Program-made: the position numbers and the translations under genes | Shown here: positions 38,919 through 55,411 of the stretch, one piece after another | Position numbering within the stretch: the first letter of the stretch is position 1 | Layout of the letters: each line of letters opens with the position of its first letter | The notes under the pieces: generated by a model | Databases searched by the model: none | What the model saw: the letters and a program-made list of their open reading frames with translations, nothing else | What the model was told of the DNA's origin: nothing | Source: Pseudomonas xantholysinigenes | GTDB taxonomy: Bacteria > Pseudomonadota > Gammaproteobacteria > Pseudomonadales > Pseudomonadaceae | Direction: 5' to 3' | Assembly (NCBI RefSeq): GCF_014268885.2 | Contig: NZ_CP077095.1 | Location: forward strand, 4,309,001 to 4,373,000 | DNA: 64,000 nt

Positions 38919-39578
38919 CTACCACCTGACGGTCTTGCGCCCCGCCCGGCTGTCCTCACCCAGCCATTGACCCGCGCGCAGCACAGGGATCAATGCCGCA
39001 TCCGCCTGCAACTCGAGGTCGACCTGCGCCGAACGCCTAGCCAGGTCGGCCTCCAGGCGCAGCTGGTGCTGCCCGTCCTGACTCAACTGCGCAATGGCGT
39101 GCACACCCTTGGCACAAGCCACGACCAGCGAACCATGGCCCAACGCCAACGACCATGGCTCGCGCATGGCCAGGTCGGTCACCATGATGCTGCCCGTTGC
39201 CCGTTGGCAGCTAAACCCTGCGCCCTGCACATCAATCCTCCCCTGCCACTGGCCAGCCAAACGGTAACCCGCCGCGACACTGTGCTGCGCGCCCAACGCC
39301 TGCAACTCGGCCTGCCAGCGCCAGGGCCAACCGCCAAGGCCCAACTGCCAGGCCTGGCCCTGGAAGCCCAGGCGAATGTGCAGGTCCCGCTGCCAGGGAC
39401 GCCAGTGCCATTGAATCGGCCCGACATCAGCGACCTGCAACACCTGTCCCTGCCACAGCGTGCCTGATACGCCCTGGGCAGGCAGCCGCATGCCGGCGGC
39501 CAGCCAGCTTGCCGGCAGTTCGGCCAACAGGGTCAAGCCAAACACCAGGCTCACCCAACACAGCGCGCGCCGCTTCAT
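38919..39578 (-). CDS. gspN: Type II secretion protein GspN
   Basis: 219 residues: one N-terminal membrane segment (CWVSLVFGLTLLAELPASWL), then LPAQGVSGTLWQGQVLQVAD, the GspN signature. Periplasmic accessory protein of the T2SS platform, absent from many systems. ATG 39578 overlaps the gspM stop (ATGA). Last gene of the operon. Confidence 0.85.
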   Translation of the reverse strand: MKRRALCWVSLVFGLTLLAELPASWLAAGMRLPAQGVSGTLWQGQVLQVADVGPIQWHWRPWQRDLHIRLGFQGQAWQLGLGGWPWRWQAELQALGAQHSVAAGYRLAGQWQGRIDVQGAGFSCQRATGSIMVTDLAMREPWSLALGHGSLVVACAKGVHAIAQLSQDGQHQLRLEADLARRSAQVDLELQADAALIPVLRAGQWLGEDSRAGRKTVRW

Positions 39579-39961
39579 GGCCGTACCCGCACATCGAAGC
39601 GCAGGCCATCGGTTTCCCGCGCCAGCGCCCACTGCAAGGGTTGCGCGCCCTCCTCGGCCAAGGCCTGAAGCCAACCTTGCAGGGCCTGCGCCTGGGCAAC
39701 CTTGCCACGCACCTGCCACCCCTCGCCTTCTGGCTGTACATCATCCAGGGCGATACCGCGGGCCTGGGCCGACTGGCGCAGGCGCTCCAGGCTCATGGGT
39801 GCTCCAGGCTCAAGCGTAGCCACCGACTCAGCCAGGCTCCGCCACTGGCCCTGCTCCCGCCACCAGGCCATGCCCTCGCGCAATGCCAGCACGGCGAGCA
39901 ACAACCCCACCAGCCCCCAGGCCAGCGACATGCGTTTGCGCTGCAACCACTCGCCCCGCAT
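39575..39961 (-). CDS. gspM: Type II secretion protein GspM
   Basis: 128 residues, short cytoplasmic start MRGEWLQRKR, one membrane segment (LAWGLVGLLLAVLALREGMA), periplasmic domain ending WLQALAEEGAQPLQWALARE. Assigned by size, topology and position after gspL; sequence signature is weak as usual. Start overlaps the gspL stop by 1 nt (TGATG). Confidence 0.82.
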   Translation of the reverse strand: MRGEWLQRKRMSLAWGLVGLLLAVLALREGMAWWREQGQWRSLAESVATLEPGAPMSLERLRQSAQARGIALDDVQPEGEGWQVRGKVAQAQALQGWLQALAEEGAQPLQWALARETDGLRFDVRVRP

Positions 39962-41034
39962 CACGCGCCCTCCAAGTCGAACGATGCCTGGCGTGAGGTC
40001 ATGTCGACCGTCACCTGTGCCCCCTGCGCCGCCGCCATGGCCTGCCACGGCGGCGCTTCGCCGTCACCCTCCAGTTCCAGGTGCCAACGTTGGCCATCGA
40101 AGCGCACTGCGCGCAGTTGCCAACCGGGATGTTCGCTCAACCAGTCTTGCAACTGCGCTTGCAGCCCATCGAGCCGCTGCAGGCGCACCTGGTGTTCCTG
40201 TTGCGCGCCACGTAGTCGCCGCAGCGCCTGGGCGGCCTGCCCGGGTGAGGCCTGGACGCCGGTCACGGCCACGACTTGCTCGCGGTAGAGCTGTGCCTGG
40301 CGCCACTGCTGGATACCCCACACGCTCCCCCAGGTCGCTGCCAGCAACAGGCAAGCAGCCATCAGACGCCGCTGGGCCAGCGAAAGCCGAATGCTGGCTC
40401 TGGCCCGACGGGTCTCGAACAAGCCCGGCAAGTTTTCGAAGTTGGCCAGGGTTTCTGGCCATCGCCCTTGCACACGGTGCAGGGAGCCTTGCAACCCAGT
40501 CAATGCTGGTCTGAAGGTCGCTTGCCTCGGCCAGGCCAACCAGCGCGTCCTGCCCGTCGGGTCGCGCCCCTGAAAGAGGTCCATCTCCCCACGTTGCCAC
40601 TGCCAGGCCTCACCCTGCCCAAGCTCGGGCAGCAACTGGAACTCGGCCCAGCAGCGCTCCACCAGCAACCCCCATTGGGCACATTGCTCCCGCCAGCGCG
40701 CCAGTGCCTGCTGACTGACCACCCAAAAGCGCAGCTCGCCCGCTTGCCGGCCCAGGCCGGCACACACCACCTCATCGCAGGCTTGAGCCAGACGATCCTC
40801 GAGCAATAACGGCCACTCCTCGCGCTTGAGCCCAGGTGGCGCGGTCAACTGGAAATGGCTGCAATGTTCCCCCGGCACAACCAGAGCAACCCGTGCATCG
40901 AGCCCGGTCGGCGGCGCCCCGGTTCCTTCACGCACAGGCAAGCCGTGCTCGACCAGCAACCAGCCCCAGGCTTCGCCGGGACGGACCAGCAACCAAGGCT
41001 GGCGCGCTGCGCGACGCCACCACTCACGCTTCAT
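39961..41034 (-). CDS. gspL: Type II secretion protein GspL
   Basis: 357 residues: cytoplasmic actin-like domain (about 1-220, LKREEWPLLLEDRLAQACDE is typical), one membrane segment (RLMAACLLLAATWGSVWGI) and a periplasmic ferredoxin-like domain. Bridges the GspE ATPase to the inner-membrane platform. ATG 41034 overlaps the gspJ stop by 4 bp. gspK, normally between gspJ and gspL, is missing here and lies at 52118-53083. Confidence 0.88.
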   Translation of the reverse strand: MKREWWRRAARQPWLLVRPGEAWGWLLVEHGLPVREGTGAPPTGLDARVALVVPGEHCSHFQLTAPPGLKREEWPLLLEDRLAQACDEVVCAGLGRQAGELRFWVVSQQALARWREQCAQWGLLVERCWAEFQLLPELGQGEAWQWQRGEMDLFQGRDPTGRTRWLAWPRQATFRPALTGLQGSLHRVQGRWPETLANFENLPGLFETRRARASIRLSLAQRRLMAACLLLAATWGSVWGIQQWRQAQLYREQVVAVTGVQASPGQAAQALRRLRGAQQEHQVRLQRLDGLQAQLQDWLSEHPGWQLRAVRFDGQRWHLELEGDGEAPPWQAMAAAQGAQVTVDMTSRQASFDLEGA

Positions 41035-41621
41035 GAGCGCCCCCACGGCAGAACGAAAGTACAGGCATAAGGTGCTCCATCACGCACAAGCTCCACGCGC
41101 ACGCCACGCCCAGGGTGCGCGGGTTGATCGGAAGGCCAGGCCAGCCAGCGGCCTGCCTGGTGGTAAAGCACACGCAGGTCACTGACCCGCTCCAGGCGCT
41201 CGCGCACCACCCATTGCGGCAGCGCTGCCGCATAGAGATCGGCTGAGCTTTCCAGCAGCAGGCGCTGTTCACGAGCCTCGAAACGCAAACGCTGGCGTTG
41301 CAGGCGCGAACCGCCCTCGGCCTCGGGCCAGGCCGCAGCGGCCACCCACAGCAGCTGCTGGCGGTCGGGCTGCCAGTCAAGCCAGCGCACCGCCAATGGC
41401 AGGCGCTGTTCGTACAGACGCCGCAGCACTGGGTTGTCGAAGCGCCGCTCCAAAGCCAGGCAGAAATCCAGCACACCGGTTTCCCGCACCTGCTCATCAA
41501 GGCGCTCCCGCACCTTCAGCCAGCCATTGACCAGCGCGGCCAGCATCACGCCCAGCAAGGCGGTCAAGGCCAGGGCCACCAGCAACTCGATCAGGGTCAT
41601 GCCCACCTGACGTCGTTTCAT
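41031..41621 (-). CDS. gspJ: Minor pseudopilin GspJ
   Basis: 196 residues with prepilin leader MKRRQVG / MTLIELLVALALTALLG (cleavage after Gly7, Glu at +5). The globular part has RQQLLWVAAAAWPEAEGGSR and a C-terminal GVRVELVRDGAPY. Forms the pseudopilus tip with GspI and GspK. Confidence 0.9.
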   Translation of the reverse strand: MKRRQVGMTLIELLVALALTALLGVMLAALVNGWLKVRERLDEQVRETGVLDFCLALERRFDNPVLRRLYEQRLPLAVRWLDWQPDRQQLLWVAAAAWPEAEGGSRLQRQRLRFEAREQRLLLESSADLYAAALPQWVVRERLERVSDLRVLYHQAGRWLAWPSDQPAHPGRGVRVELVRDGAPYACTFVLPWGRS

Positions 41622-41986
41622 GGCCGCTCCAGGAAGACCTTGTACTGCCCCAGCGGCAAGCGCTGGTCACGGTCGGCATACAGCAACAGCTCGCCCCGAC
41701 GCAGGTCACGCACACCGGTGCGGCGCAACTGCAGTTGCCAATGGCAGTCCTGGCCACCCTCGGCCAAGACGCCACGGTCCTGGTCGGCTGCCGGCCAGTA
41801 CTGCTCGACCACGAAACGCGCTTGCAGCTCCCGCGCGCACAACAGGCCCAGGCGATGTTGCTGCACGGTGTCCTGCACCGCCAGGCGCTGGCGCAGGACC
41901 TGGCTGGTGATCACCGCGAGGACTGCTGCAATGCCGAGGGCAACACTCACTTCGAGCAAGGTAAACCCGCGTTGCCTGCGCTTCAT
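41618..41986 (-). CDS. gspI: Minor pseudopilin GspI
   Basis: 122 residues, leader MKRRQRG / FTLLEVSVALGIAAVLA (cleavage after Gly7). Overlaps gspH and gspJ by 4 bp each. Confidence 0.9.
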   Translation of the reverse strand: MKRRQRGFTLLEVSVALGIAAVLAVITSQVLRQRLAVQDTVQQHRLGLLCARELQARFVVEQYWPAADQDRGVLAEGGQDCHWQLQLRRTGVRDLRRGELLLYADRDQRLPLGQYKVFLERP

Positions 41987-42555
41987 GGCATCACGCTCAC
42001 GCGTAATTGCCCGCTGCGCTCCCAGTCCCAGCGCCGGCCGCCCTCGGCCCAGCGCCAACGCACCGTGCCCGGGCGGGCCCAACCATCGGGGGTGAACAGC
42101 AGCGCGGGTGTCTGGCTGGCTGGCCAGTCGGGGCGCAGGCCTTTTGGCCAATCGCCCAGCGCCACGGCCTCTACCTGCCATCGGTCACCCTGCCGACGGA
42201 CGAACTCGGGGCGCTGGCCGTTCCAGCGCAAGCCCCGCAGGTGCCCGGCATGCCGGGCCAGGTCTGCCTGAGCCAGTGTGCTGGCGGCCAGACGGTCAAG
42301 CGCTTGGTCGACGCTGCTCCTGCCGCTGTCGAGCCAGGCCACGGCCAAGCTGGTCATCAGCGCGGCGATGGCCAGTACCACCAGCAGTTCGAGTAGGCTG
42401 AAGCCGCGCTGGAGACACAGTGAAGCGGGGGCTGCGTTGCAGCCCTTTCGCGGCACAAGGCCGCTCCTACAAGAGAACGCGATCGCCTGTAGGAGCGGCC
42501 TTGTGTCGCGAAAGGGCCGCGAAGCGGCCCCGGCAATGCCAAGCCAGGCACCCAT
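41983..42555 (-). CDS. gspH: Minor pseudopilin GspH with a REP-encoded N-terminal extension
   Basis: 190 residues as read from ATG 42555. The pseudopilin core is FSLLELLVVLAIAALMTSLA preceded by QRG, the prepilin peptidase site. The native-looking SD GAGGTGA (42561-42567) overlaps the gspG stop and points to ATG 42555, but a REP pair (42427-42533) lies between this ATG and the core and is read in frame without a stop, giving a 51-residue leader where about 6-25 is usual. The only near alternative start adjacent to the core is CTG 42420, with no SD. GspH function may be reduced, or the leader may be tolerated because it is cut off. Confidence 0.85.
   Translation of the reverse strand: MGAWLGIAGAASRPFRDTRPLLQAIAFSCRSGLVPRKGCNAAPASLCLQRGFSLLELLVVLAIAALMTSLAVAWLDSGRSSVDQALDRLAASTLAQADLARHAGHLRGLRWNGQRPEFVRRQGDRWQVEAVALGDWPKGLRPDWPASQTPALLFTPDGWARPGTVRWRWAEGGRRWDWERSGQLRVSVMP
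42427..42533 (+). repeat. REP pair (GCACAAGGCCGCTCCTACAA class) inside the gspH 5' end
   Basis: GCAGCCCTTTCGCGGCACAA and its inverse AAGGCCGCTCCTAC/GTAGGAGCGGCC around an 18-bp loop, ending GCCGCGAAGCGGCCCC. It has the same structure as 25961-26065 and 55304-55411. Confidence 0.93.
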
Positions 42556-42565
42556 TCCAGTCACC

Positions 42566-43000
42566 TCAAAGCGCCCAGTTGCCCAAATCGGCATCCAACC
42601 CGTCACCACCGGGCTGGCCATCGGCGCCCAGCGAATACACATCGACCCGCCCATGCTCACCCGGCATGCGGTACTGGTACGGCGTCCCCCACGGATCTTC
42701 CGGCAAACGACGGATGTAACCATCACTGCGCCAACTGCGCGGCAGCGGTTCCTGGGTCGGCTTCTTCGCCAGCGCCGCCAGCCCCTGTTCGTTGCTGGGG
42801 AAACGCAGGTTGTCCAGACGATACATGTCCAGCGCCTGCTCCAGGGTCGCAAGGTCGGCCATGACCTTCTGCTTCATGGCCTTGTCCTGGTTGCCCAGCA
42901 CGCTGGGCGCGACCACCGCGATCAGCAGGCCGATGATGAAGATCACCACCATGATTTCCATCAGCGTGAAGCCACGTTGGCGGGTAGGTCGTCGTTGCAT
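42566..43000 (-). CDS. gspG: Major pseudopilin GspG
   Basis: 144 residues: leader MQRRPTRQRG / FTLMEIMVVIFIIGLLIA, then the GspG core with KAMKQKVMADLATLEQALDM, LPEDPWGTPYQYRMPGEHG and VDVYSLGADGQPGG (calcium-site region). ATG 43000 has AGGAGA 6 nt upstream, preferred over the GTG at 43018. Confidence 0.95.
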   Translation of the reverse strand: MQRRPTRQRGFTLMEIMVVIFIIGLLIAVVAPSVLGNQDKAMKQKVMADLATLEQALDMYRLDNLRFPSNEQGLAALAKKPTQEPLPRSWRSDGYIRRLPEDPWGTPYQYRMPGEHGRVDVYSLGADGQPGGDGLDADLGNWAL

Positions 43001-43014
43001 GAAAGGTCTCCTGG

Positions 43015-44211
43015 TCACAGTTGCAATCCCTGGTTGAGCTGCATGATCGGCAGCAGTACCGCCAGCACGATGAACAGCACTACCGCGCCCATCAGCAGAA
43101 TCATCAACGGTTCGAACAACGCCATGGCGGTGTCCACCTGGCGGGCGAAGCCGCGCTCCTGGTCATCGGCCACCCGTTCGAGCATGTCAGCCAGGGTGCC
43201 GCTGGCCTCGCCGCTGCCGACCATGTTCACCAGCAGCGGTGGAAACTGCCGGGCGTTGTCCAGCGCCCGGTGCAGGCTGGCGCCGCCCTGCACCTGCTGG
43301 CGCACCTGTTCCATGGCCGCGCGGATGCGCCGATTGCCGACCGTCTCGGTGGCCACCTGCAAGGCTTCGAGCAGGGCCACGCCACTGCCGCAGAGAATCG
43401 CCAGGCTACGCGCCAGGCGGGCGCTCTCCAGCACCTGCAACACAACGCCGACACGTGGCAGGCGCAGCAACAGCTCATCGCGGCGCAGGCACCAATGCGG
43501 TTTGCGTAGCAGCCAGCCGCCGAACACAGTCAGGCCGATCGCCAGCGCCAGCAGGTACGGCCCGGCATGCACCAGCCCCTGACTGATGCCGATCAGCAGC
43601 GCGGTAATGAACGGCAGGCTCTGCCCGGAATGGGCGAACTGCTCGGTGAGCTTAGGCACCACGAAGGTCATCAGGCCAACCACCACGGCCAGGGACACGC
43701 CCATCAGCACCGCCGGGTAGATCAGCGCGGTGCGTGCCTTGTGGCGCTGGCGCTGGACCTGTTCAAGATGATCGGCCAAGCGGCTCAGCACCTGGCCCAA
43801 ACGCCCGGAGCGTTCCCCGGCCTCGACCAGCGCGCAGTACAACCCGGTAAACGGCGCCCCCTGGCGGGCCAGGCTACGCGCCAACCCAAGGCCTTCGGCA
43901 AGCGAACCGCGCAGCGTCACCAGCACCGCATGCAAGGCCGGCTGGCGCAGTTGCCGCTCCAGGGTGGCCAGGGCATCGACCAGGGGGATGCCGGCGCCGA
44001 CCAGGGTCGCCAACTGACGGGTCAGCTCGCACAGTTGAGCGCGGCTCAGGCGCTGGCGACGGGGCTGATCGCCGTCATGGCGCTGCATCTGCCGGGCGAA
44101 CAGCCCCTGCTCGCGCAACAACTGCCGCGCATGGCGTTCGCTGTCGGCCTGCACGCTGGCCTTGCGCGTCTTGCCGGCCAGGTCCACGGCCTGGTAGCGA
44201 TAGGTCGGCAT
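43015..44211 (-). CDS. gspF: Inner-membrane platform protein GspF
   Basis: 398 residues starting MPTYRYQAVDLAGKTRKASV. Two repeated GspF domains (ELTRQLATLVGAGIPLVDAL; LARSLAILCGSGVALLEALQ) and membrane segments including YPAVLMGVSLAVVVGLMTFV and a C-terminal LMGAVVLFIVLAVLLPIMQL. Lies 2 bp after gspE. Confidence 0.95.
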   Translation of the reverse strand: MPTYRYQAVDLAGKTRKASVQADSERHARQLLREQGLFARQMQRHDGDQPRRQRLSRAQLCELTRQLATLVGAGIPLVDALATLERQLRQPALHAVLVTLRGSLAEGLGLARSLARQGAPFTGLYCALVEAGERSGRLGQVLSRLADHLEQVQRQRHKARTALIYPAVLMGVSLAVVVGLMTFVVPKLTEQFAHSGQSLPFITALLIGISQGLVHAGPYLLALAIGLTVFGGWLLRKPHWCLRRDELLLRLPRVGVVLQVLESARLARSLAILCGSGVALLEALQVATETVGNRRIRAAMEQVRQQVQGGASLHRALDNARQFPPLLVNMVGSGEASGTLADMLERVADDQERGFARQVDTAMALFEPLMILLMGAVVLFIVLAVLLPIMQLNQGLQL

Positions 44212-44213
44212 GC

Positions 44214-45662
44214 TCAGCCCTGCACCACGCGCAGCACTTCGGCCAGGCTGGTCTCGCCCCGTGCCAGGCAATCGCTGGCCATCGCCACCAGGCTCTGCCG
44301 GCGGCCATCCAGATAAGCCTGCATGGCCAATTCGCTTTCGCCGGCGTAGAGCAGCGCCACCAGCCCGGCATCCAGTTCGATGAATTCGTACAGCCCCAGT
44401 CGGCCGACATAGCCGCTGCCCTGGCAGTGCTCGCAGCCAACCGGATGGTAGCTCTCGCGCAGGCTGCCCAGCTCGGGCCACAACTCGCGCTCGGCGCGTT
44501 GCAGAGGCTGCGCCACGGCACAGGCACATAGGCGGCGCACCAAGCGCTGGGCCAACACGCCGCGCAGGCACGAAGCGATCAGAAAGGGTTCGATGCCCAT
44601 ATCGCGCAAGCGAGTCACCGCGCCCACGGCGCTGTTGGTGTGCAAGGTCGACAGCACCAAATGCCCGGTGAGGCTGGCCTGCACGGCAATCTGCGCGGTC
44701 TCCTGGTCGCGAATTTCGCCGAGCATGATCACGTCCGGGTCCTGGCGCAGGATGGCGCGCAGGCCACTGGCGAAGGTCAGCCCGGCACGCGGGTTGATGG
44801 CGGTCTGGCCGATGCCGGCGATGGCGTATTCCACCGGATCCTCGACGGTCAGGATATTGCGGCTACCGTCATTGAGACTGTTGAGGCTGGCGTACAGCGT
44901 GGTGGTCTTGCCCGAACCGGTGGGGCCAGTGGACAGCACGATGCCGTTGGGCCGCGCCAGGCATGTGCGCAGGCCGCGCAGCACGGCGGCGGGCATGCCC
45001 AGGTTGTCCAGCGCCAGCAGGCTGGCCTGTTTGTCGAGCACACGCATCACCACCCGCTCGCCATGGATGCCGGGCAGGGTCGAGACCCGCACATCCACCT
45101 CGCGCCCAGCGGCGCGCAGGGTGATGCGCCCATCCTGGGGCTGGCGCTTCTCAGCGATATCCAGCCGGGCCATGACCTTGATCCGCGACACCAGCATCGC
45201 CGACAGCGCCCGTGGCGGGCGCAGCACCTCGCGCAGGTGGCCATCGATGCGCAGGCGCACCAACAGGCTCTGCTCGAAGGTCTCGATATGAATGTCCGAG
45301 GCACGCAGGCGCAAGGCCTGGCCGAACAGGCCGTTGATCAGGCGGATCACCGGGGCTTCGTCATCGCTTTCCAGCAAGTCCTCGATGCGTGGCATCTCGC
45401 TCATCAGGCTGTCCAGATCGACCTGCTCGCCAATACCCTCGATCAACGCCTCGGTCGCCGCTTCGCCGGCCTGGTAGAGCTGGCCGAGGCGCTCGTCGAA
45501 GCGCGCGGCGTCGAGCTGCTCGACAGCAACCGGCGGCCCCTGCACGCGCAACAGCTCCTGCAACTGATCGCTGTCGGCATCGCTGCGCAGCCACAGCTGC
45601 CAGCCACCTTCGGCCGGCGCCATGGCCACGCCGCTCTGGCGTGCCAGGCGATAGGGCAGCAT
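44214..45662 (-). CDS. gspE: Type II secretion ATPase GspE
   Basis: 482 residues: N1E domain, then IRLINGLFGQALRLRASDIH, Walker A GIVLSTGPTGSGKTTTLYAS, Asp box (TVEDPVEYAIAGIGQ), Walker B (DPDVIMLGEIRDQETAQIA), His box (LVLSTLHTNSAVGAV). The C-terminal zinc region has GCEHC, but the first pair reads LCACAV (C-x-C instead of C-x2-C). ATG 45662 overlaps the gspD stop by 1 nt and has AAGGCGG upstream; a GTG one codon earlier is possible. Confidence 0.95.
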   Translation of the reverse strand: MLPYRLARQSGVAMAPAEGGWQLWLRSDADSDQLQELLRVQGPPVAVEQLDAARFDERLGQLYQAGEAATEALIEGIGEQVDLDSLMSEMPRIEDLLESDDEAPVIRLINGLFGQALRLRASDIHIETFEQSLLVRLRIDGHLREVLRPPRALSAMLVSRIKVMARLDIAEKRQPQDGRITLRAAGREVDVRVSTLPGIHGERVVMRVLDKQASLLALDNLGMPAAVLRGLRTCLARPNGIVLSTGPTGSGKTTTLYASLNSLNDGSRNILTVEDPVEYAIAGIGQTAINPRAGLTFASGLRAILRQDPDVIMLGEIRDQETAQIAVQASLTGHLVLSTLHTNSAVGAVTRLRDMGIEPFLIASCLRGVLAQRLVRRLCACAVAQPLQRAERELWPELGSLRESYHPVGCEHCQGSGYVGRLGLYEFIELDAGLVALLYAGESELAMQAYLDGRRQSLVAMASDCLARGETSLAEVLRVVQG

Positions 45663-47614
45663 CACCAGTCACCGCCTTCTAGGCGCGCACGGCTGGCGGG
45701 GAACACCTGCAACAGTGGCAGCCCCTCGGCCAGGGCCGGCACCTTGAGCGGGGTGTTCTGCTGCAGGCTCTGGTACTTCTGCTGGCTCAGGCCGGCCAGG
45801 CTCTCGCCGTCGCGCAGGATGCGCGGGCGGATGAACACCATCAGGTTCTGCTTGGTGTTCTTGCTGGCGTCGGAGCGGAACAGCCGGCCCAGGTAGGGAA
45901 TATCGCCGAGCAACGGCACACGCTGGTTGCTGGTGGCAAGCTCGTCGCTGATCAGCCCGCCGAGGATCACCAGGCCGTTGTCCTCGACCATCACCTTGGT
46001 CTTGATCTCGCGCTTGTTGGTGATCACATCGCTGGCGGCGCTGGAGTCGGCGATCGACGACACCTCCTGGACGATGTCCAGGCGCACGCTGTTGTCGATG
46101 TTGACCTGCGGCTTGATGCGCAACTTCACCCCGACTTCCTTGCGCTCGATGGTCTGGTAGGGGTTGGCGTTGTTCTGGGTGACGGAGCCGGTGACGAAGG
46201 GCACCTCCTGGCCGACCAGGATCGATGCCTCGGCGTTGTCCAGGGTCAGCAGGGTCGGCGTGGACAGCAGGTTGAAACCACTCTTGCCCTTGAGCGCGTT
46301 GACCAGCATGGCGAAGTTAAAACCGCCCCCGAAGTGGCCGATGCCAGCGGTGGCGCCGGAGGTGGCCGAGAGCAGCTTGCCGAGTTTTTCGTTGTCGCCG
46401 CTGCTGGCGGCCCCGGCGATGCTGGCGATGTTCACCCCGTTGCTGCCGAAATTGACGATGCCGGCGCCGAACTTTTCGTCGGCGAACAGCCACTGCACCC
46501 CCAGCTCCTGGGCGCTGCTGTCGGACACCTCGGCGATGATCGCCTCGACCACCACCTGCGCCCGACGGATATCCAACTGCTCGACAATGCTGCGATAAGC
46601 CGCCAGCTCGCTGTCCGGGCCGACCATCACCACCGCGTTGGTGCCCTCCTCGTACTCCAGGCGAATACCCGAGTCGCTGGCCGCCTGCACCGGCGCCTCC
46701 TTGTTTTCGCCCTCGGCGGCCGGCACCGTGCCAGCCTGGCTCAGGCCGCGCAGCACCTTGACCACTTCGGCGGCGTTGGCATGGCGCAGGTAGATGACCT
46801 GGGTGTTGCTGCTGCGCAGGTTGTCGCTGGGCCGGTCGAGCTGGGCCAACAGCGCCCGCACCCGCTCACGGCTGTCGGCACTGCCACGCACCAGCAGCGC
46901 GTTGCTGCGTGGGTCGGCGACCACTTGGGCGGCATCGCTGCCCTGCTCGCGGGCCAGCAACCGGGTCACCAGGCCAGCGGTGTCGGCGGCGCTGGCATGC
47001 TTGAGCGGCATCACCTGCAACGGCTCGTCGCTGACCTGGTCGAGCTGGCGCAACAGGCTGTCGATGCGCTCCAGGTTGCTGCGCCAGTCAGTGACCACCA
47101 GCAGGTTGGCCGCCGGGTACGGGGTGATCACCCCGACCCGCGGATCGATCAACGGTTTGAGAATACCGAGCATCTGCTCGCTGGCGGCGTTGCGCACATT
47201 GAACACTCGGGTGGCCACGCCGTCGCTGCCTTCAGCCTTTTTGCCCGCGGTTTCCACCGGCACCGGCTCCAACCGCGCGGCCTGGTCGGGGACGATCTTC
47301 ACGCTGCCATTGGGCAGGTCCACCGCGGCGAAGCCCTGGGCACGTAACTGGGCGAGGAAGATGTCGTAGATGGCATCGGCGTCGTGGCGATCGACCGTGC
47401 GCACGGTGACCTTGCCCTGCACCCGCGGGTCGACGATGAAGGTGGTGCCGGTGATGCGCGACACACTGTCGATGAACTCACCGAGCTCGGTGTCGACGAA
47501 GTTCACCTCGTACAGCGGCGTGCCATCGTCGGCGAACACCTCCGGCTCTTCGGCCTGGACCAGGGATACGCCGAACATCAACAGCCCGGCCAGACAGTAC
47601 CTTGCGATCATCAT
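45662..47614 (-). CDS. gspD: Type II secretion outer-membrane secretin GspD
   Basis: 650 residues with signal peptide (cleavage after VQA, residue 21), N0 domain (NFVDTELGEFIDSVSRITGT), repeated N1-N3 domains (VMPLKHASAADTAGLVTRLL; VIYLRHANAAEVVKVLRGL) and the secretin core: LLSTPTLLTLDNAEASILVG, QEVPFVTGS, VMVEDNGLVILGGLISDE, VPLLGDIPYLGRLFRS. Forms the outer-membrane channel. Confidence 0.96.
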   Translation of the reverse strand: MMIARYCLAGLLMFGVSLVQAEEPEVFADDGTPLYEVNFVDTELGEFIDSVSRITGTTFIVDPRVQGKVTVRTVDRHDADAIYDIFLAQLRAQGFAAVDLPNGSVKIVPDQAARLEPVPVETAGKKAEGSDGVATRVFNVRNAASEQMLGILKPLIDPRVGVITPYPAANLLVVTDWRSNLERIDSLLRQLDQVSDEPLQVMPLKHASAADTAGLVTRLLAREQGSDAAQVVADPRSNALLVRGSADSRERVRALLAQLDRPSDNLRSSNTQVIYLRHANAAEVVKVLRGLSQAGTVPAAEGENKEAPVQAASDSGIRLEYEEGTNAVVMVGPDSELAAYRSIVEQLDIRRAQVVVEAIIAEVSDSSAQELGVQWLFADEKFGAGIVNFGSNGVNIASIAGAASSGDNEKLGKLLSATSGATAGIGHFGGGFNFAMLVNALKGKSGFNLLSTPTLLTLDNAEASILVGQEVPFVTGSVTQNNANPYQTIERKEVGVKLRIKPQVNIDNSVRLDIVQEVSSIADSSAASDVITNKREIKTKVMVEDNGLVILGGLISDELATSNQRVPLLGDIPYLGRLFRSDASKNTKQNLMVFIRPRILRDGESLAGLSQQKYQSLQQNTPLKVPALAEGLPLLQVFPASRARLEGGDW

Positions 47615-48034
47615 TCATCCTTGGCGCTTGAAGCCGGTCACGGCGGGGCGCGGCGGCCAGGGCAGGCGCTCGCGCCGGCCGTTGTTGTCGAAAACCAGGC
47701 CATCGCCGTCGATGTCCTGCAGCACGATGCCCGGCGCCAAACGCTGGCCACGGCCAAGGGTGCGCACCTGCTGGCCGTGGCGCAGCACCACCACGCTGGC
47801 CGACAGCGGCTGGGCCTTGAGCCCGCCCAGGTAGACCAGGGGCAATCGGGTGAGCGGGATACGGCCATCGTCCAGCGGTGCCTGCCAGTGCTCGACCAGC
47901 AAGCCGGGCAATGCTGACGGCACCGGCAAAGGCGCGCTGGCCGGCTGTGGCTGGCGGCTGAGCAGCAGCATGCACTGCGCCGCCAGCCAGCCAGCCAGGG
48001 TCAGCAGGGCGAAGCTGAACAGCCGCGAGGTCAC
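47615..48034 (-). CDS. gspC: GspC-like type II secretion protein, short form
   Basis: 139 residues from GTG 48034: membrane segment (LFSFALLTLAGWLAAQCMLL) and an HR domain (LTRLPLVYLGGLKAQPLSAS, GQRLAPGIVLQDIDGDGLVF) that contacts the secretin N0 domain. There is no room for the C-terminal PDZ or coiled-coil domain seen in longer GspC. The start overlaps the upstream stop by 4 bp (GTGA). Confidence 0.82.
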   Translation of the reverse strand: MTSRLFSFALLTLAGWLAAQCMLLLSRQPQPASAPLPVPSALPGLLVEHWQAPLDDGRIPLTRLPLVYLGGLKAQPLSASVVVLRHGQQVRTLGRGQRLAPGIVLQDIDGDGLVFDNNGRRERLPWPPRPAVTGFKRQG

Positions 48035-49677
48035 GCGGCCACCTGGTGCGGGTGCCAGCCGGGGTGCCCCTGCACGTAGCGCACGGCTGGCAGTTGCAAG
48101 GGCGCCAAGGCCCAGCCCGGAGTCTGTCGGCTCAGCCAGGCTTCCAACGTCTGCCACAGCGGCGCACCGGCCTGGGCATCGAAGTGCAGGCCGAAGGTAC
48201 GGCACAGCCCTTCGACCGGTTGCAGGCCGATGATGCGTTTGCCGTTGGGGCTGTAGCTCACCTGCCAATCCTGGCTTTGCCAGCGCGGCAGGTCCTGGCT
48301 GTTATCCAGCAGCAACGGGTCGCCGAACAACTGCTCGGCGGCGTTCTCCAGCACCTGCTCGACCTGGCGCGCCGGGGCCTCGACCACCGGGGCGGCGTAA
48401 CCACCAGTCAGGCTGATCAGGTGTTCGCGGGTGATCGGCTGGCCGGCTTGCAGAGGGTAGTCGTAACGCAGGCCGGGCAACAGCACCGGCATGCTGGAGT
48501 CATCGGCCAGGGCCTGATGCAGCAGGCGGTCCCAACTGCCGCCACGGGTATCGCGGCGCCACAGCGCCTCGGGAGCGTGCGCCAACGGCTGGTCGAGCCA
48601 GGCGGCATGGCCACTGCGTTGGCGTTGCAGCTCGCCACGCAACTGACTGGCGCGAGCCATCGCCTGAGGCCCGAGGCTGTGCTCGAAGGCCGGGAAGAAG
48701 CGCGCCTCGAACTGCCACTGATCACCCGCCTGGCGACAGCGCAGGCGAAACGCGCCGCTGGCCCGGCAGCCAGCGAACAGTACCGGCACTCGGCGACCGC
48801 TGGCCTGGGTGGCCTGCACGGGCGCCGGCCACAGGTCCTGGCCACGGGCACACAACAGCACATCCACCTCCGGCACGCGCTCGGCCAGCCACAGCCCAGG
48901 GCCGGTGCCGACATCCGCCAGCGCCACCACCAGGTCGGCCTCGCGCCGGGCTTGCTCGAAGCTCGGTTGCAGGGATTGGTACCACTGTTTGAGCGAAGCT
49001 TTCTGGTCCTGGGCATAAGGGTCGGTGACGCCGACCACGGCGATCCGCACGCCGCCGCGCTGGAATACTTTAAGCCCCTCGACCCCCAATGCCTTGGCCT
49101 GGCCATCGGCCAAGCCGGCGCCGAGGGTAATAGAACAAGACTGGCGATAAAGCCCGGTACTGCGCTGCGGCCACAACACCCGCTCGTCACTGCTGACCCG
49201 CACCTCGCTGCCGAGCAACTGGCTGCCCTGCACACCGCTTTCACCCTGGGTGAGATAGGCCAGGCCGCTGCCATTCCAGCACTGGCCATTTTCCAGGGTC
49301 AGGTATTGCTCGCGGCCTGCCTCGAGCCGCAGTTGCTCGAGCAGCGCCGCCAATACCGCATACCCACCGGTGCGGGCTTGCCCGGCAAGGCCGGCATCGA
49401 GCAGCGGCGCCAGCTCGGGCTGCCCGGCACTGGCGTTCGGCCCGCTCATCCACGGCGCGCGGCCCAGGTGGCTGACCGGCCCCAAACGCGTCGCCGGTAC
49501 CACCGCCAGGCCCGGCTGGCGGGCATCGAGGGTATCGGCGACATACAGCAGGTCCACCGCCCGCTCGCCGCCACCGCGGGGCATGGGCAAGGCCGAGCAG
49601 GCGCCGAGCAACGGTGCCAAGGCACCGACACCCATCCAGCTGATCACTTCGCGCCTGCTCGCCATCGACTCCGCCAT
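48031..49677 (-). CDS. Tat-type lipoprotein of the SoxB/5'-nucleotidase fold, catalytic motifs lost
   Basis: 548 residues (or 544 from ATG 49665). The N-terminus ASRREVISWMGVGALAPLLG then AC (Cys27) combines a twin-arginine motif with a lipobox. The body follows SoxB/UshA layout, but the metallophosphatase ligands are altered. Motif DxH reads ADTL (48-50), GGDTW-like reads ENGQCW (129-134), the SHNG-type segment reads ADVG (254-257) and GHTH reads CARGQ (276-280). The C-terminal 5'-nucleotidase domain (LISLTGGYAAPVV, VSYSPNGKRIIGL) is kept. First gene of the gsp operon; a Pho box lies about 40 bp upstream. In P. putida, phosphatases encoded beside the Xcp T2SS are secreted under phosphate limitation; this may be the counterpart of one of them. 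A catalytic role is doubtful. Confidence 0.72.
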   Translation of the reverse strand: MAESMASRREVISWMGVGALAPLLGACSALPMPRGGGERAVDLLYVADTLDARQPGLAVVPATRLGPVSHLGRAPWMSGPNASAGQPELAPLLDAGLAGQARTGGYAVLAALLEQLRLEAGREQYLTLENGQCWNGSGLAYLTQGESGVQGSQLLGSEVRVSSDERVLWPQRSTGLYRQSCSITLGAGLADGQAKALGVEGLKVFQRGGVRIAVVGVTDPYAQDQKASLKQWYQSLQPSFEQARREADLVVALADVGTGPGLWLAERVPEVDVLLCARGQDLWPAPVQATQASGRRVPVLFAGCRASGAFRLRCRQAGDQWQFEARFFPAFEHSLGPQAMARASQLRGELQRQRSGHAAWLDQPLAHAPEALWRRDTRGGSWDRLLHQALADDSSMPVLLPGLRYDYPLQAGQPITREHLISLTGGYAAPVVEAPARQVEQVLENAAEQLFGDPLLLDNSQDLPRWQSQDWQVSYSPNGKRIIGLQPVEGLCRTFGLHFDAQAGAPLWQTLEAWLSRQTPGWALAPLQLPAVRYVQGHPGWHPHQVAA

Positions 49678-49715
49678 CCCTGTTCTCGTTGGGCTCCGGA
49701 TATTGCGGCGCTTGC

Positions 49716-49733
49716 GTGACAGTTTGATGGCAG
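49716..49733 (-). promoter_or_regulatory. Pho box upstream of the gsp operon
   Basis: On the minus strand CTGCCAT-CAAA-CTGTCAC matches the PhoB consensus CTGTCAT-N4-CTGTCAC at 13 of 14 half-site positions. About 10 bp downstream lies CAATAT as a poor -10. It ends 39 bp before the start of the SoxB-like gene. Confidence 0.8.
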
Positions 49734-49811
49734 AAAACCGACGGTAATTCCAAAAGCAACTTGATTAAGCCTTTAGTAATAGCCGTGAGTTTTAAACGCG
49801 CGTTAACAATT

Positions 49812-49829
49812 CTGACAATCAATCATCAT
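49812..49829 (+). promoter_or_regulatory. Candidate weak Pho box upstream of phoX
   Basis: CTGACAA-TCAA-TCATCAT on the plus strand resembles two PhoB half-sites (the first 5 of 7, the second weaker), followed 10 bp later by TACAGT as a possible -10. It ends 54 bp before the phoX start. The strong box at 49716-49733 may serve both directions instead. Confidence 0.4.
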
Positions 49830-49883
49830 ACTTGCCGTCTACAGTCGCGGTTTCCTTCAACTCAGCCAAAAAAGGACACCCTG

Positions 49884-51935
49884 ATGAGTCGAGACAGCGG
49901 CGATAACCTGGACCGCAACCCGAGCGGCAACCTGCCGATGGCCAGCGTCATGGACGCCTACCTGAGCCGTCGCGCCGTGGTCCGCGGCAGCCTCGGCGCC
50001 GCCATCGCCATGATCGCCGGTACCGGCCTGAGCGGTTGCTTTGACGGCGGCGGCGGCTCCAACCACGACGACCCGGCACCGCCCACCACGCCGGAGAAAC
50101 CCAAACTCAAGCTGGGCTTCAACTCGATCACCGGCTCGCGCACCGACGCCTGCGTGGTCGCCACCGGCTACAGCGCCTACGTCCTGGCGCCCTGGGGCAC
50201 GCCGCTGAACGCCACCGCCAACCCGTGGAAGGCCGACGGCAGCAACACCTCCACCGACCAGGCCAACGCCATGGGCATGCACCATGACGGCATGCACTTC
50301 TTCCCCATCAACGGCAGCTCCAGCGACGGCCTGCTGGCGATCAACTTCGAGTACATCGACACCGCCGCCCTGCACCCGAGCGGGCCCACCACCGTCGCCG
50401 GCAAGCGCCCGGTCGAGGAGGTGCGCAAGGAGATCAACGCCCACGGCGCCGGCGTGGTGCGCATCAGCAAGGTCGCCGGGCGCTGGCAGGTGGTCGACAA
50501 CGACCCGCTCAATCGCCGCTTCACCACCGTCTCGCTGATGGATATCGCCGGCCCCATGCGCGGCACCGACCACGTCAAGACCAAGTTCTCGCCCACCGGC
50601 ACCCAGTGCCGCGGCACCAACAACAACTGCGGCAACGGCTACACCCCGTGGGGCACCTACCTGACTTGCGAGGAGAACTGGCCCGGCATCTTCGTCAACA
50701 AAGGCACGCGCCCGGCCAACCAGGTGCGCATCGGCGTGTCCAGCAGCAGTGGCCAGTACAAATGGGAGACAGCCGCCGGTGACGCCAGCGAAGTGGCCGG
50801 CGAATTCGCCCGCTTCGACATCACCCCCACCGGCGCCAGCGCCACCGACGACTTCCGCAACGAAGCCAGCACCTACGGCTACATCGTCGAGATCGACCCC
50901 TACAACGCCGCCACCCTGGCCGTGAAGCGCACCGCCCTGGGCCGCTTCCGCCACGAAGGCTGCTGCCCGGGCCTGCCGGTGGCCGGCAAGCCGCTGGTCT
51001 GGTACACCGGCGACGACTCCAACAACGAGTACCTGTACAAGTTCGTCTCCGACGCGCTGTGGGACCCGGCCGACGCCAACCCGGCCGACCGCCTGGCCAC
51101 CGGCGCCAAGTACCTGGACAAAGGCAAACTGTACGTGGCCCGCTTCGACGCCAACGGCACGGGTGTCTGGCTGCTGCTCGACGTCGCCACCGCGACCACC
51201 GCTGGCAGCACCCTGGGCGCCCAGTTCGGCGACCTGCCGGGGATCATCCTCAACACCCGCGGCGCCGCCGACGCCGTGGGTGCCACGCCCATGGATCGCC
51301 CGGAGTGGACCGCCGTCAACCCGCTCAACGGCGACGTCTACCTGACCCTGACCAACAACAGCGCGCGCACCGCCGCCAAGGTCGACGCGGCCAACCCGCG
51401 CGGGCCGAACCGCCACGGCCATATCATTCGCTGGCACGACAGCGCCGACCACAAGACCTTCACCTGGGACATCTTCGTGTTCGGTGCCAACGCCGCTGGC
51501 ACCCCGGACATCAACCGCTCGGGCCTGACCGAACTGAACCAGTTCGCCAGCCCCGACGGCATGAGCTTCGATAGCCGTGGCGTGCTGTGGTTCGAGACCG
51601 ACAACGGCGAAGCCACCTTGACCAGCTATACCAACGATCAGTTGCTGGCGGTGATCCCCACCGACCTGGTGGATGCCAACGGCAAGCAGATCCCGATCAA
51701 CGCCACCAACCAGGTGGACCTGCGCCGCTTCTTCGTCGGGCCGAATGGTTGCGAGGTGACGGGCATTACCTTCACCCCAGACAACAAGACGCTATTCGTC
51801 AACATCCAGCACCCGGACAACTGGCCGAGCACCGACAAGGCCACCGACGTCACGCCGGCCGGCAGCTCGGTGCGGCCACGTTCGTCGACCGTGGTGATCC
51901 AGCGTAACGATGGCGGGGAGATCGGCACCGCCTGA
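49884..51935 (+). CDS. phoX: PhoX-family alkaline phosphatase (DUF839), Tat lipoprotein
   Basis: 683 residues. Twin-arginine motif SRRAVVRGSLGAAIAMIAG, then a lipobox LSGC (Cys about 52) and a GGGG spacer, so it should be exported folded and lipidated. PhoX core: TPWGTYLTCEENWPGIFVN, GRFRHEGCC, WYTGDDSNNEYLYKFVSDAL, PEWTAVNPLNGDVYLTLTNN, SPDGMSFDSRGVLWFETDNG and GCEVTGITFTPDNKTLFVNI, with Glu/Asp/Cys residues that bind the Fe/Ca cofactor in this family. ATG 49884 follows AAAGGA. Divergent from the gsp operon, with tatABC and gspK downstream. Confidence 0.93.
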   Translation: MSRDSGDNLDRNPSGNLPMASVMDAYLSRRAVVRGSLGAAIAMIAGTGLSGCFDGGGGSNHDDPAPPTTPEKPKLKLGFNSITGSRTDACVVATGYSAYVLAPWGTPLNATANPWKADGSNTSTDQANAMGMHHDGMHFFPINGSSSDGLLAINFEYIDTAALHPSGPTTVAGKRPVEEVRKEINAHGAGVVRISKVAGRWQVVDNDPLNRRFTTVSLMDIAGPMRGTDHVKTKFSPTGTQCRGTNNNCGNGYTPWGTYLTCEENWPGIFVNKGTRPANQVRIGVSSSSGQYKWETAAGDASEVAGEFARFDITPTGASATDDFRNEASTYGYIVEIDPYNAATLAVKRTALGRFRHEGCCPGLPVAGKPLVWYTGDDSNNEYLYKFVSDALWDPADANPADRLATGAKYLDKGKLYVARFDANGTGVWLLLDVATATTAGSTLGAQFGDLPGIILNTRGAADAVGATPMDRPEWTAVNPLNGDVYLTLTNNSARTAAKVDAANPRGPNRHGHIIRWHDSADHKTFTWDIFVFGANAAGTPDINRSGLTELNQFASPDGMSFDSRGVLWFETDNGEATLTSYTNDQLLAVIPTDLVDANGKQIPINATNQVDLRRFFVGPNGCEVTGITFTPDNKTLFVNIQHPDNWPSTDKATDVTPAGSSVRPRSSTVVIQRNDGGEIGTA

Positions 51936-51974
51936 GCGACTGTCTTGCTCAACTGCTAAAGCTAGCGCGGTCGC

Positions 51975-52090
51975 TGTAGGAGCGGCCTTGCGTCGCGAAA
52001 GGGCTGCGCAGCAGCCCCGGCGATTTTGATGGTGGCTCAGTATCTGGGGCCGCTGCGCGCCCCTTTCGCGACGCAAGGCCGCTCCTACAC
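51975..52090 (+). repeat. REP pair in outward orientation (CGCAAGGCCGCTCCTAC class)
   Basis: GTAGGAGCGGCCTTGCGTCG at the left and CGACGCAAGGCCGCTCCTAC at the right enclose GGGCTGCGCAGCAGCCCC and GGGGCCGCTGCGCGCCCC. Here the conserved cores face outward, opposite to most other pairs in the window. It fills the convergent gap between phoX and gspK. Confidence 0.92.
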
Positions 52091-52117
52091 AGATTGCGCA
52101 TAGCCTGCGATTGCCTG

Positions 52118-53083
52118 CTACCAGGCCACCGGCTCCCGCCCCCTGACCCGCACCTGCTGCGCCGGCACCCGCGCATGCCACTGCACCACGCCCAGCGCCT
52201 CGATCTGGAACTGACTGCGCAACGTGCGCCCCTCCTCCTCGAACGACAGCTGCAACAAAAAATGCCCGCTGTTGAGCAACAACCCTTCGCTCAACCGGGC
52301 AAACGTCTCGTCATCCACGGCGCCCAAGGCCTGGCGCAACGCTGCCGCATCCACATACCCCGCCGCCGGCCGGCCGCTGATGATGCGGCTGAGCATCGAC
52401 CGCGAGAACCGCCCCTCGTACATCGCCTCCAGCAACGGCAAGTGCTCCAGCCCCAGGGCATTGGCATTGAGCCGCCAGCCCGTGGTCACGGGCAGCGCGC
52501 AGAGCATCCGGTAGCGCCCCTGCCGGCCACTGTCGGGCGCCAGCAGCAGGTTCAATTCGCTGCTGTCGAGCATCGGCTGGTTGGCCGCCAGGCGCGGCGG
52601 TTGCTGGCGCAGGTACTGGGCACTCTCGGCCCCCTGCAGGCGGGTATCGCTGTCGGCGTCCAACCAGTCGACCAAGGTATCGACCAGTTGCTCGGCGGCC
52701 ATGTCGCCTCCCAGTAGATAAAGCAATTGCCGCTCGGCCCGCGGGCCGTCCTCGCTCACCAAGGCATTGACGTTGAAGCAGCTGTGCTGGTCGACGACCC
52801 GCAACTGCGCCTTGCCGGCCCCAAAGTCATAAGCCAGCGCCTGCCCGCGCAGGGCCTGCCAGAACAGCGGGCTGGCACGCCATGCGGGATCGCGCAGGGC
52901 CTGGGAGGCATAGGCCAGGCCAGCCTGTTCCATGGCCCGCACCTGCACTCGCTGCTGCAGCAGGCGCAGCGCATCCACCTGGCGCCGGCCATCCTCCACC
53001 AGCCAGGCCAGCCCCGCCGCGAGCATCGCCACTGCCACCAGCACCATCAACAGTGCCGCGCCCTGTTGTTGCCTGCGCCCCAT
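52118..53083 (-). CDS. gspK: Minor pseudopilin GspK
   Basis: 321 residues. MGRRQQQG / AALLMVLVAVAMLAAGLAWL is a pseudopilin leader lacking Glu5, as usual for GspK. The body has SCFNVNALVSEDG, VDTLVDWLDADSDTRLQGAE and the helix-hairpin-like SSELNLLLAPDSG. Separated from its partner genes gspI-gspJ-gspL by phoX and the operon head. Start 53083 matches the leader; the frame extends upstream without similarity. Confidence 0.92.
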   Translation of the reverse strand: MGRRQQQGAALLMVLVAVAMLAAGLAWLVEDGRRQVDALRLLQQRVQVRAMEQAGLAYASQALRDPAWRASPLFWQALRGQALAYDFGAGKAQLRVVDQHSCFNVNALVSEDGPRAERQLLYLLGGDMAAEQLVDTLVDWLDADSDTRLQGAESAQYLRQQPPRLAANQPMLDSSELNLLLAPDSGRQGRYRMLCALPVTTGWRLNANALGLEHLPLLEAMYEGRFSRSMLSRIISGRPAAGYVDAAALRQALGAVDDETFARLSEGLLLNSGHFLLQLSFEEEGRTLRSQFQIEALGVVQWHARVPAQQVRVRGREPVAW

Positions 53084-53218
53084 CCTTGCCTTCCTGTCGC
53101 CGGTAAAAACGCCAGTCAACACGCCGGTTGTTGCAGGCACATGGCAGTCATGTGCCCGTCATCTGCGCAGGGCAGGATTGGCCTTCCCTTTTTATCGACC
53201 TGACAGGAGTTGTCTGAC

Positions 53219-53437
53219 ATGGGTGGCATCGGAATCTGGCAATTGGTGATTGTGCTGTTGATCGTCTTCCTGCTGTTCGGCACCAAGCGCCTCAAGGGGC
53301 TGGGCAGCGATGTGGGCGAGGCGATCCAGGGCTTTCGCAAGTCCATGGGGCCCAACACTGGCGAACCGGTCGCGCAGCAACAATCGCCCCAGAACAACCC
53401 GCCGCTGCAACAGGCGCAAACGGATCGCCAGGCCTGA
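53219..53437 (+). CDS. tatA: Twin-arginine translocase subunit TatA (second set)
   Basis: 72 residues: [20 protein letters not shown] membrane helix, [20 protein letters not shown] amphipathic helix with the FG(T)K hinge, Q-rich tail. ATG 53219 has AGGAG 9 nt upstream. First of tatABC next to a Tat substrate (phoX). Confidence 0.92.
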
Positions 53438-53715
53438 TGTTCGAGATCGGCTTCACCGAACTGCTGCTGGTGGGCATCGTCGCCCTGCTGGTGCTCGGCC
53501 CCGAGCGCCTGCCGATGGCCGCGCGCGGCCTCGGCCGCGGCCTGGGCCAGGCGCGCCGGGCAATGAACGCGCTCAAGGCCCAGGTACAACGGGAAATCGA
53601 CATGCCCGCCCTGGACGCGGCACCGCTGCAACGCCTGGAACAGCAGATCCGCCAGGGCATCCAGCTCGACGCGGCGCCCGCCCATGATGCGGCCCCAGCC
53701 AAGGAGCAGGCCTGA
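53437..53715 (+). CDS. tatB: Twin-arginine translocase subunit TatB
   Basis: 92 residues: [20 protein letters not shown] then [20 protein letters not shown]. The GFTELL-GPERLP features mark TatB rather than TatA. Start overlaps the tatA stop by 1 nt (TGATG) and its own stop abuts tatC. Shorter than the usual ~140-residue TatB. Confidence 0.9.
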
Positions 53716-54449
53716 TGTCGGTTGCCCTCGAACAACCGGGCCGCATGCCGCTGACCGAGCATCTGCGCGATCTGCGCAAGCGCCTGGTACGCTGCCTGCT
53801 ACTGATCGCACTGGTGTTCTGCGGTTTGTTCCCCTTCGCCCAGACGCTCTACACCTACATCTCCGAACCGCTGCGCCGCTACCTGCCCGAAGGCGCCAGC
53901 ATGATCGCCACCAGCGTCACCTCGCCGTTTCTGGCGCCGTTCAAGCTGACCGCAATGTGCGCGCTGTTCCTCGCCATGCCGCTGTTGCTGCACCAGGCCT
54001 GGGGCTTCATCGCCCCGGGGCTGTACCGCCGCGAGCGGCGCATCGCCCTGCCGTTGCTGCTGTCGAGCATCGTGCTGTTCTACGGCGGCATGGCGTTCGC
54101 GTTCTTCCTGGTGTTCCCGATGATGTTCGGCTTTTTCGCCAGCGTGACCCCGGAAGGGGTGGCGATGATGACCGATATCGGCTTGTACCTGGACTTCATC
54201 CTGGCGCTGTTTTTGGCGTTCGGCCTGGCCTTCGAGATCCCGGTGGCGACCTTCATCGTGGTCTGGGCGGGGTTGACCGACGTGGCCACCCTGCGGCGCA
54301 GCCGGCCCTATGTGATCGTCGGGTGTTTCGTGGTGGGGATGATCCTGACGCCGCCGGATGTGTTTTCCCAGACCATGCTGGCGGTGCCGATGTGGGTACT
54401 GTTCGAGGTGGGGTTGCTGGCGTGCGGGTGGGTGCGCCGGGCGGGGTAG
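53715..54449 (+). CDS. tatC: Twin-arginine translocase subunit TatC
   Basis: 244 residues, six membrane segments. MPLTEHLRDLRKRLVRCLLL contains the conserved HLxELRxR-type start; FLAPFKLTAMCALFLAMPLL, WGFIAPGLYRRERR and AFGLAFEIPVATFIVV (with the conserved F-E) complete the twin-arginine-peptide receptor. Confidence 0.93.
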   Translation: MSVALEQPGRMPLTEHLRDLRKRLVRCLLLIALVFCGLFPFAQTLYTYISEPLRRYLPEGASMIATSVTSPFLAPFKLTAMCALFLAMPLLLHQAWGFIAPGLYRRERRIALPLLLSSIVLFYGGMAFAFFLVFPMMFGFFASVTPEGVAMMTDIGLYLDFILALFLAFGLAFEIPVATFIVVWAGLTDVATLRRSRPYVIVGCFVVGMILTPPDVFSQTMLAVPMWVLFEVGLLACGWVRRAG

Positions 54450-55303: not shown

Positions 55304-55411
55304 CGCCGGGGCTGCTGCGCAGCCCTTTCGCGACACGAGGCCGCTCCTACAGGAGTACGCGCATCCCTGTAGGAGCGGCCTTGTGTCGCGAAAGGGGCGC
55401 AAAGCGCCCCC
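55304..55411 (+). repeat. REP pair (GACACAAGGCCGCTCCTACAG class)
   Basis: CCCTTTCGCGACACGAGGCC with its inverse, loop AGTACGCGCATC, outer stems GGGGCTGCTGCGCAGCCC and GGGGCGCAAAGCGCCCC. Lies between the divergent DUF pair and nag operon. Confidence 0.92.

Follow-up and report, generated by a model that had tools for sequence, protein, structure and literature searches.

Why should a lipoprotein of the SoxB lineage stand as the first gene of a type II secretion system (T2SS) operon, back to back with an alkaline phosphatase? The question arises from a stretch of 64,000 nucleotides of Pseudomonas xantholysinigenes (contig NZ_CP077095.1, positions 4,309,001 to 4,373,000), hereafter the window, whose own coordinates are used below. 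A first-pass annotation made from the sequence alone had described, at 38919-54449, a block with a full T2SS, a PhoX phosphatase and a SoxB-fold protein that each carry a twin-arginine translocation (Tat) signal and a lipobox, gspK, and a full tatABC in addition to the usual one, and we find the block as described. The operon gspCDEFGHIJLMN lies on the minus strand with uxpA, the gene of the SoxB-fold protein, at its head; uxpB (phoX) is divergent from it, gspK stands apart, and tatABC comes next. This arrangement matches the Xcp/Uxp/tat-1 module of P. putida, and its order is kept in 61 of 80 related loci from named genomes (the best 80 of 112 loci). The closest named uxpA loci in this set are those of Pseudomonas soli, P. 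mosselii, P. peradeniyensis, and other Pseudomonas (93-96%), which places the window in the P. putida group, and database names on homologues read "lipoprotein UxpA" from 95% identity downward. The module is the phosphate-starvation Xcp/uxpA/uxpB/tat-1 locus of this group and, as such, is already known.

As for its two lipoproteins, we consider it fairly probable that UxpB is a GspN-dependent surface phosphatase and UxpA a non-catalytic partner dedicated to the T2SS; we infer both the role of UxpA and the dependence on GspN.

A re-coded metal site in UxpA, a protein tied to its T2SS

The gene uxpA (48031..49677, minus strand) encodes a Tat lipoprotein with the two-domain fold of SoxB and the 5'-nucleotidases, and its residues 43-465 align with solved SoxB. 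Metallophosphoesterases of the SoxB and 5'-nucleotidase type carry the metal motifs D-x-H, GGD, H/N-x-E, H, and G-H-x-H/Q. In the best-scoring SoxB-like loci among 112 other genomes of the class with a match, 29 out of 29 proteins carry D-x-H, GGD, H-W-E, H-N-G, and G-H-T-H. At these five places UxpA reads ADTLD, ENGQ, SSDE, ADVG, and ARGQD. Compared with SoxB thiosulfohydrolase (2wdc, TIGR04486), it reaches 118.3 bits where the curated cut-off is 550, which leaves it outside that assignment, and six of the seven metal positions (D/H/D/H/H/H/H in SoxB) are exchanged; every His that serves SoxB as a ligand is lost. The exchanges are fixed in the 117-121 sequences of our residue table, built from the window and 120 of 175 phmmer matches with partial sequences scored as gaps: L50 in 117/117, Q132 and S163 in 120/120, and D255, R278, and Q280 in 121/121. 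The seventh position, D48, is retained in 117/117, and the Glu of H-W-E, which lies outside the seven, is also kept. The search patterns for the 80 related loci included the re-coded motifs LENGQ[CG]WN and ARGQD[LF]WP, and these loci were therefore set aside for judging motif fixation.

The exchanged motifs are among the most conserved parts of the protein. Mean conservation is 0.93 around the former ligands and 0.73 elsewhere (40 sequences of less than 85% identity), and six of the seven near-invariant runs of at least five residues fall inside the old metal motifs. Such conservation points to a re-used pocket and not to a decaying gene, and we rejected the idea that UxpA is decaying. Judged by these residues, UxpA most likely does not work as a phosphatase that depends on metal. 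Some database annotations make it a 2',3'-cyclic-nucleotide 2'-phosphodiesterase or a 5'-nucleotidase, and a passage of one proteome paper labels it a putative phosphatase. The first-pass annotation had expected the SoxB-fold protein to be loaded with its cofactor before export; since most metal ligands are absent, SoxB-type loading is not expected, and this part of the proposal is not supported.

UxpA is also tightly coupled to one kind of T2SS. In all 80 related loci, the first module gene to follow uxpA is gspC, and 79 of them have PhoX on the opposite flank of uxpA. We also surveyed 198 Pseudomonadaceae genomes drawn evenly and 274 genomes of the class; these surveys score first-look candidates, of which the survey of 198 had no more than 7 in each genome. 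UxpA was found in 12 of the 198, and the same 12, with no others, carry this clade of GspD (641-1394 bits, the next score being 463); the two genes are on one contig and less than 0.9 kb apart in all 12. In the set of 274 genomes, the protein of the window is the sole one to score as UxpA (952 bits, next 187). The invariant core of the module is thus uxpA, the T2SS, and PhoX, and not Tat. An apparent exception in Azomonas (locus L074), with T2SS and uxpA but no PhoX, was rejected, as a PhoX is found at G470:C5:204706-206412; if the contig is the same, it starts about 0.7 kb beyond the point where L074 stops (204001). Outside Pseudomonas and its kin, Litchfieldella xinjiangensis (L082) has uxpA, T2SS, and PhoX together, with gspK inside the operon between gspJ and gspL.

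Two lipoprotein starts and GspN

The divergent gene uxpB (49884..51935, plus strand) encodes a PhoX alkaline phosphatase, as judged by PF05787 (451.7 bits) and by the alignment of residues 77-681 with the P. fluorescens PhoX 3zwu (7e-105); motifs such as TPWGTYLTCEEN and MDRPEW are kept. The twin arginine and the lipobox that had been noted in both proteins recur in the related loci, in 79/79 PhoX and in 79/80 UxpA by pattern, the 80th by eye.

The two proteins differ in what follows the lipidated Cys. UxpB starts with Cys-Phe-Asp (Cys-Ser-Asp in one case) and continues with a stretch rich in D, G, S, and N, CFDGGGGSNHDD in the window. Asp is at +3 in 76 of the 78 parsed sequences, and the other two (AVV, HLA) are apparently mis-parsed, with the Cys misplaced. 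UxpA starts with CSAL, CSSL, and similar sequences, and an acidic residue at +2 to +4 occurs in 0 of 79 parsed, four of which (APW) also have an apparently misplaced Cys; one UxpA (L047) and one PhoX (L077) were left out of these counts. The fraction of D, N, G, and S at +2 to +9 is 0.83 in UxpB versus 0.38 in UxpA.

These starts matter in view of recent work on GspN. In 2025, GspN was described as required for the transport of T2SS lipoproteins in Acinetobacter, a homologue being likewise required for pullulanase in Klebsiella, and T2SS lipoproteins were noted to have starts rich in G, D, S, and N (PMC12802150, in the passages at hand). The operon of the window ends with gspN (38919..39578, minus strand), which matches PF01203 at 40.5 bits (cut-off 29.6) and thereby belongs to the component recently linked to lipoprotein transport in that study. 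On this basis UxpB is predicted to be a client of GspN and UxpA is predicted not to be; lacking a segment of the UxpB type, UxpA would be sorted to the outer membrane. The likeness to the GspN-dependent lipoproteins InvL of Acinetobacter and PulA of Klebsiella lies in the gspN of the operon, the lipidated substrate, and its G/D/S/N-rich start. Unlike them, UxpB has a Tat signal and a Pho box upstream, and its dependence on GspN is a prediction; the GspN study names neither UxpB nor P. putida. The route that had been proposed for both proteins, from induction by phosphate starvation through Tat and lipidation to display by the T2SS, fits PhoX/UxpB, in sequence and in the P. putida literature. 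For UxpA a role as second substrate is not supported, as it has neither the Asp nor the D/G/S/N-rich segment.

Genes, Tat, and phosphate control of the module

The remaining operon genes, all on the minus strand, were identified by family scores where possible. The GTG start of gspC (47615..48034) shares 4 nt with the stop of uxpA; its T2SSC score of 23.9 bits is below the cut-off of 27. It is followed by the secretin gene gspD (45662..47614; PF00263, 168 bits), the ATPase gene gspE (44214..45665; PF00437, 451 bits), gspF (43015..44211; PF00482, 202.6 bits), and the major pseudopilin gene gspG (42566..43000; TIGR01710, 215 bits). Among the minor pseudopilins, gspH (41983..42420) has the prepilin signal RGFSLLE, gspI (41618..41986) matches PF02501 at 43.2 bits, and gspJ (41031..41621) has an N-methylation motif above cut-off and a T2SSJ score of 21.2 bits, below the cut-off of 28. 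The start of gspH is uncertain: the frame opens with CTG at 42420, and there is no in-frame ATG, GTG, or TTG between a REP-like pair and the prepilin signal, so that CTG or a start further upstream would be needed. This pair (42460-42500), between gspG and gspH inside the operon, is one of three REP-like inverted pairs, the others being at 51975-52088, between uxpB and gspK, and at 55340-55378. Then come gspL (39961..41034; PF12693, 64.1 bits) and gspM (39575..39961), an open frame named from its place between gspL and gspN outside any family scan, with a similar sequence there in 73/80 loci. Beyond the end of the operon and convergent with gspN, a frame of 1614 aa on the plus strand (33905-38749), of lower G+C, combines haemagglutinin repeats with a TPS secretion domain and is a two-partner-secretion exoprotein.

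On the other side of uxpB lie the detached gspK (xcpX; 52118..53083, minus strand; NF037980, 168.8 bits, cut-off 130) and, on the plus strand, the second Tat cluster, tat-1, with tatA (53219..53437; PF02416, 41 bits), tatB (53437..53715; TIGR01410, 68.5 bits), and tatC (53715..54449; TIGR00945, 230.6 bits). The host genome, a single contig of 5.6 Mb, has one further tatC outside the module. Of the 80 related loci, 62 have a full tatABC next to gspK, 10 lack one on the gspK side (L058, L062, L067, L075, L078-L081, L072, and L077, the latter two keeping a lone tatA), and 8 are undecided. The undecided loci are either cut by the contig end (L004, L007, L025, L038), have no gspK or tat within the 10 kb examined (L008, L066), or have gspK at the opposite end, where the examined DNA ends (L074, L082). 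Two tatC occur in three of the 198 genomes, all three among the 12 with UxpA, and the other nine have a single one. The TatC of tat-1 (63 tips) form one clade that excludes the 30 other TatC (FastTree support of 0.993), which fits one origin of tat-1, to judge by this tree. The tree was rooted on the second TatC of the window's own genome, since midpoint rooting made tat-1 appear mixed, and the nearest outsider to the clade is the sole TatC of a UxpA-bearing genome (G027). The tat-1 cluster is thus often kept yet dispensable to the module. The dedicated private Tat route that the first-pass annotation had envisaged is not a general feature, and the counts of two tatC in three of 12 genomes and of 10 loci without full tatABC on the gspK side rule out that a private tatABC is essential. 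In one module genome, the only tatC (G172:C2:1512018-1512716) is found past the T2SS operon, some 10 kb away from uxpA, and in Stutzerimonas nosocomialis (L077:21480-21593), which has the lone tatA beside gspK, the end of a tatC likewise lies beyond the operon.

A near-consensus Pho box had been reported between the divergent genes, and it is present at 49716..49733 on the minus strand, towards uxpA-gsp, with a score of 12/14. A second one, previously unnoted and of the same score, is at 53145..53162 on the plus strand and precedes tatA by 57 bp. The background, taken from five simulated windows, was 0.2 sites of score 12/14 per window. The best site scores at least 11 in 72 of 79 related loci in the uxpA-phoX interval, mostly 50-90 bp before uxpA, and in 28 of 64 in the gspK-tatA interval.

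The P. putida literature covers much of this ground. Putker et al. (2013, Environ Microbiol 15:2658) reportedly described the lipobox of UxpB and its processing by signal peptidase II, as well as two tat clusters, each said to be able to carry UxpB, with tat-1 beside uxpB and xcp and induced at low phosphate. From the passages of other papers, UxpB (PP_1043) is a characterised extracellular phosphatase exported via Tat (PMC12700990), and Xcp secretes this PhoX-type protein at low phosphate (PMC4509608). In P. putida BIRD-1, PhoX, UxpA, and the proteins annotated as GspK and GspG (there named tatA and tatG) respond to phosphate and are missing in the phoBR mutant (PMC5082522). Lipoproteins that use Sec or Tat, have an inner-membrane retention signal, and arrive at the surface via T2SS are credited to the 2013 paper (PMC5472700). 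The phosphate control and the secretion of UxpB are therefore published, and the central PhoX prediction of the earlier annotation is more than 10 years old. What is published for the P. putida locus, namely a Tat-exported phosphatase, its secretion by Xcp at low phosphate, and PhoBR control in BIRD-1, is predicted for the window as well, where the Pho boxes are present and recur in related loci. The lost metal ligands of UxpA, the link to GspN, and the differing starts of UxpA and UxpB do not appear in the parts of that literature cited here, although the 2013 paper may treat UxpA. In the open-licence PMC literature, we found nothing that describes UxpA as a T2SS companion whose metal site has been exchanged; the earlier papers on xcp in P. 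putida may go further.

What UxpA may do at the head of the operon

We propose the following sequence of events. At low phosphate, PhoB would act at the sites before uxpA-gsp and before tatA, which are seen here, and turn the module on, a response published for BIRD-1. UxpB, with its PhoX motifs intact, would fold in the cytoplasm, leave by Tat, and become lipidated. Its Asp and D/G/S/N-rich start would keep it from ordinary outer-membrane sorting, and the T2SS would carry it to the surface, with a predicted need for GspN. UxpA, the second Tat lipoprotein, would have its place on the periplasmic side of the outer membrane. There its re-coded pocket may hold a ligand or another protein, UxpB and the pseudopilus tip being the likeliest partners. 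A more specific version, which we put forward tentatively and think less probable than not, is that UxpA is a metal-free, re-purposed T2SS component of the SoxB lineage, an outer-membrane receptor or escort. It would hold UxpB in its folded and lipidated state (or else the pseudopilus tip) and so allow GspN and the secretin to take the whole lipidated metalloenzyme to the surface. There is some resemblance to ElpS of Caulobacter crescentus, a phosphate-induced outer-membrane lipoprotein encoded beside a T2SS and suggested to be a phosphatase activator, not a phosphatase; in the passages describing it, ElpS has no functional domain besides its lipobox, and it is likened to UxpA by description, not by sequence (PMC2996285).

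Other explanations give UxpA a different part to play. It could be an enzyme with changed chemistry, or one with a hard-ligand metal such as calcium replacing manganese, given the oxygen donors Q132, S163, D255, and Q280 beside the retained D48, E165, and D281, all of them fixed. We regard this as highly doubtful, since Leu50 and Arg278 occupy two former His positions and we know of no superfamily enzyme with this set of residues. It is also very unlikely that UxpA and UxpB are both cofactor-loaded enzymes taken by a private Tat and then displayed by the T2SS, as the first-pass annotation had it. The twin arginine and lipobox on both proteins, the single clade of tat-1 TatC, and the frequent tatABC beside gspK agree with it, but most UxpA metal ligands are gone, its start is not of the UxpB type, nine of the 12 sampled module genomes have a single tatC, and the main-text passages on BIRD-1 list PhoX among the exoproteins but place UxpA in the whole-cell set only (PMC5082522). 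The absence from the exoproteins listed there, together with the lack of a T2SS-type segment after the Cys, also makes it unlikely, if less so, that UxpA is a surface protein displayed by the T2SS, which takes up phosphate esters or nucleotides in its re-coded pocket (Arg, Gln, Ser, Asp) and passes them to UxpB. This idea would nonetheless account for a fixed Arg that replaces a ligand His in one of the most conserved parts of the protein, and for the almost constant PhoX neighbour.

Several points weigh against our preferred reading, of UxpA as a non-catalytic T2SS partner and UxpB as a client of GspN. The ligand assignment in UxpA comes from an alignment and from superfamily motifs, not from coordinates. 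Asp, Gln, and Ser can bind metals, and the telling exchanges are L50, Q132, and R278; a Gln at the place of Q280 is a ligand in the E. coli 5'-nucleotidase and tolerated in some 5'-nucleotidases. The longest near-invariant run of UxpA (399-406, LLPGLRYD) is outside the metal motifs. The co-occurrence in 12 out of 12 genomes is expected from operon linkage alone and does not prove a physical partnership, and the mirror-tree signal is weak, the top partial correlations of UxpA being with GspJ (0.36) and PhoX (0.30) in 71 loci and the window. On the side of GspN, PF01203 matches 37 of the 198 genomes, of which 32 are in one genus without UxpA, ruling out gspN as a marker of this T2SS alone. Only three of the 12 UxpA genomes have a match (two over the cut-off), and gspN thus appears strongly divergent in this T2SS clade; by similarity to the gene of the window it is found in 77/80 related loci, and the member in L074 matched no family. 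Finally, according to the passages of the GspN study, the sorting motif after the Cys is required yet not sufficient, and the Pseudomonas retention rule of its discussion (GGG or GDD, Ser/Lys) covers neither FDGG nor FDSG as tested cases (PMC12802150).

If our reading is true, UxpA would be a pseudoenzyme that has become a constant first member of a T2SS operon, and with that a new kind of T2SS helper. Moreover, UxpA and UxpB share a locus, a Tat signal, and a lipobox, and differ in their starts. Together with the GspN result, this pair would allow a direct test, in a laboratory strain, of how a T2SS discriminates between surface and resident lipoproteins.

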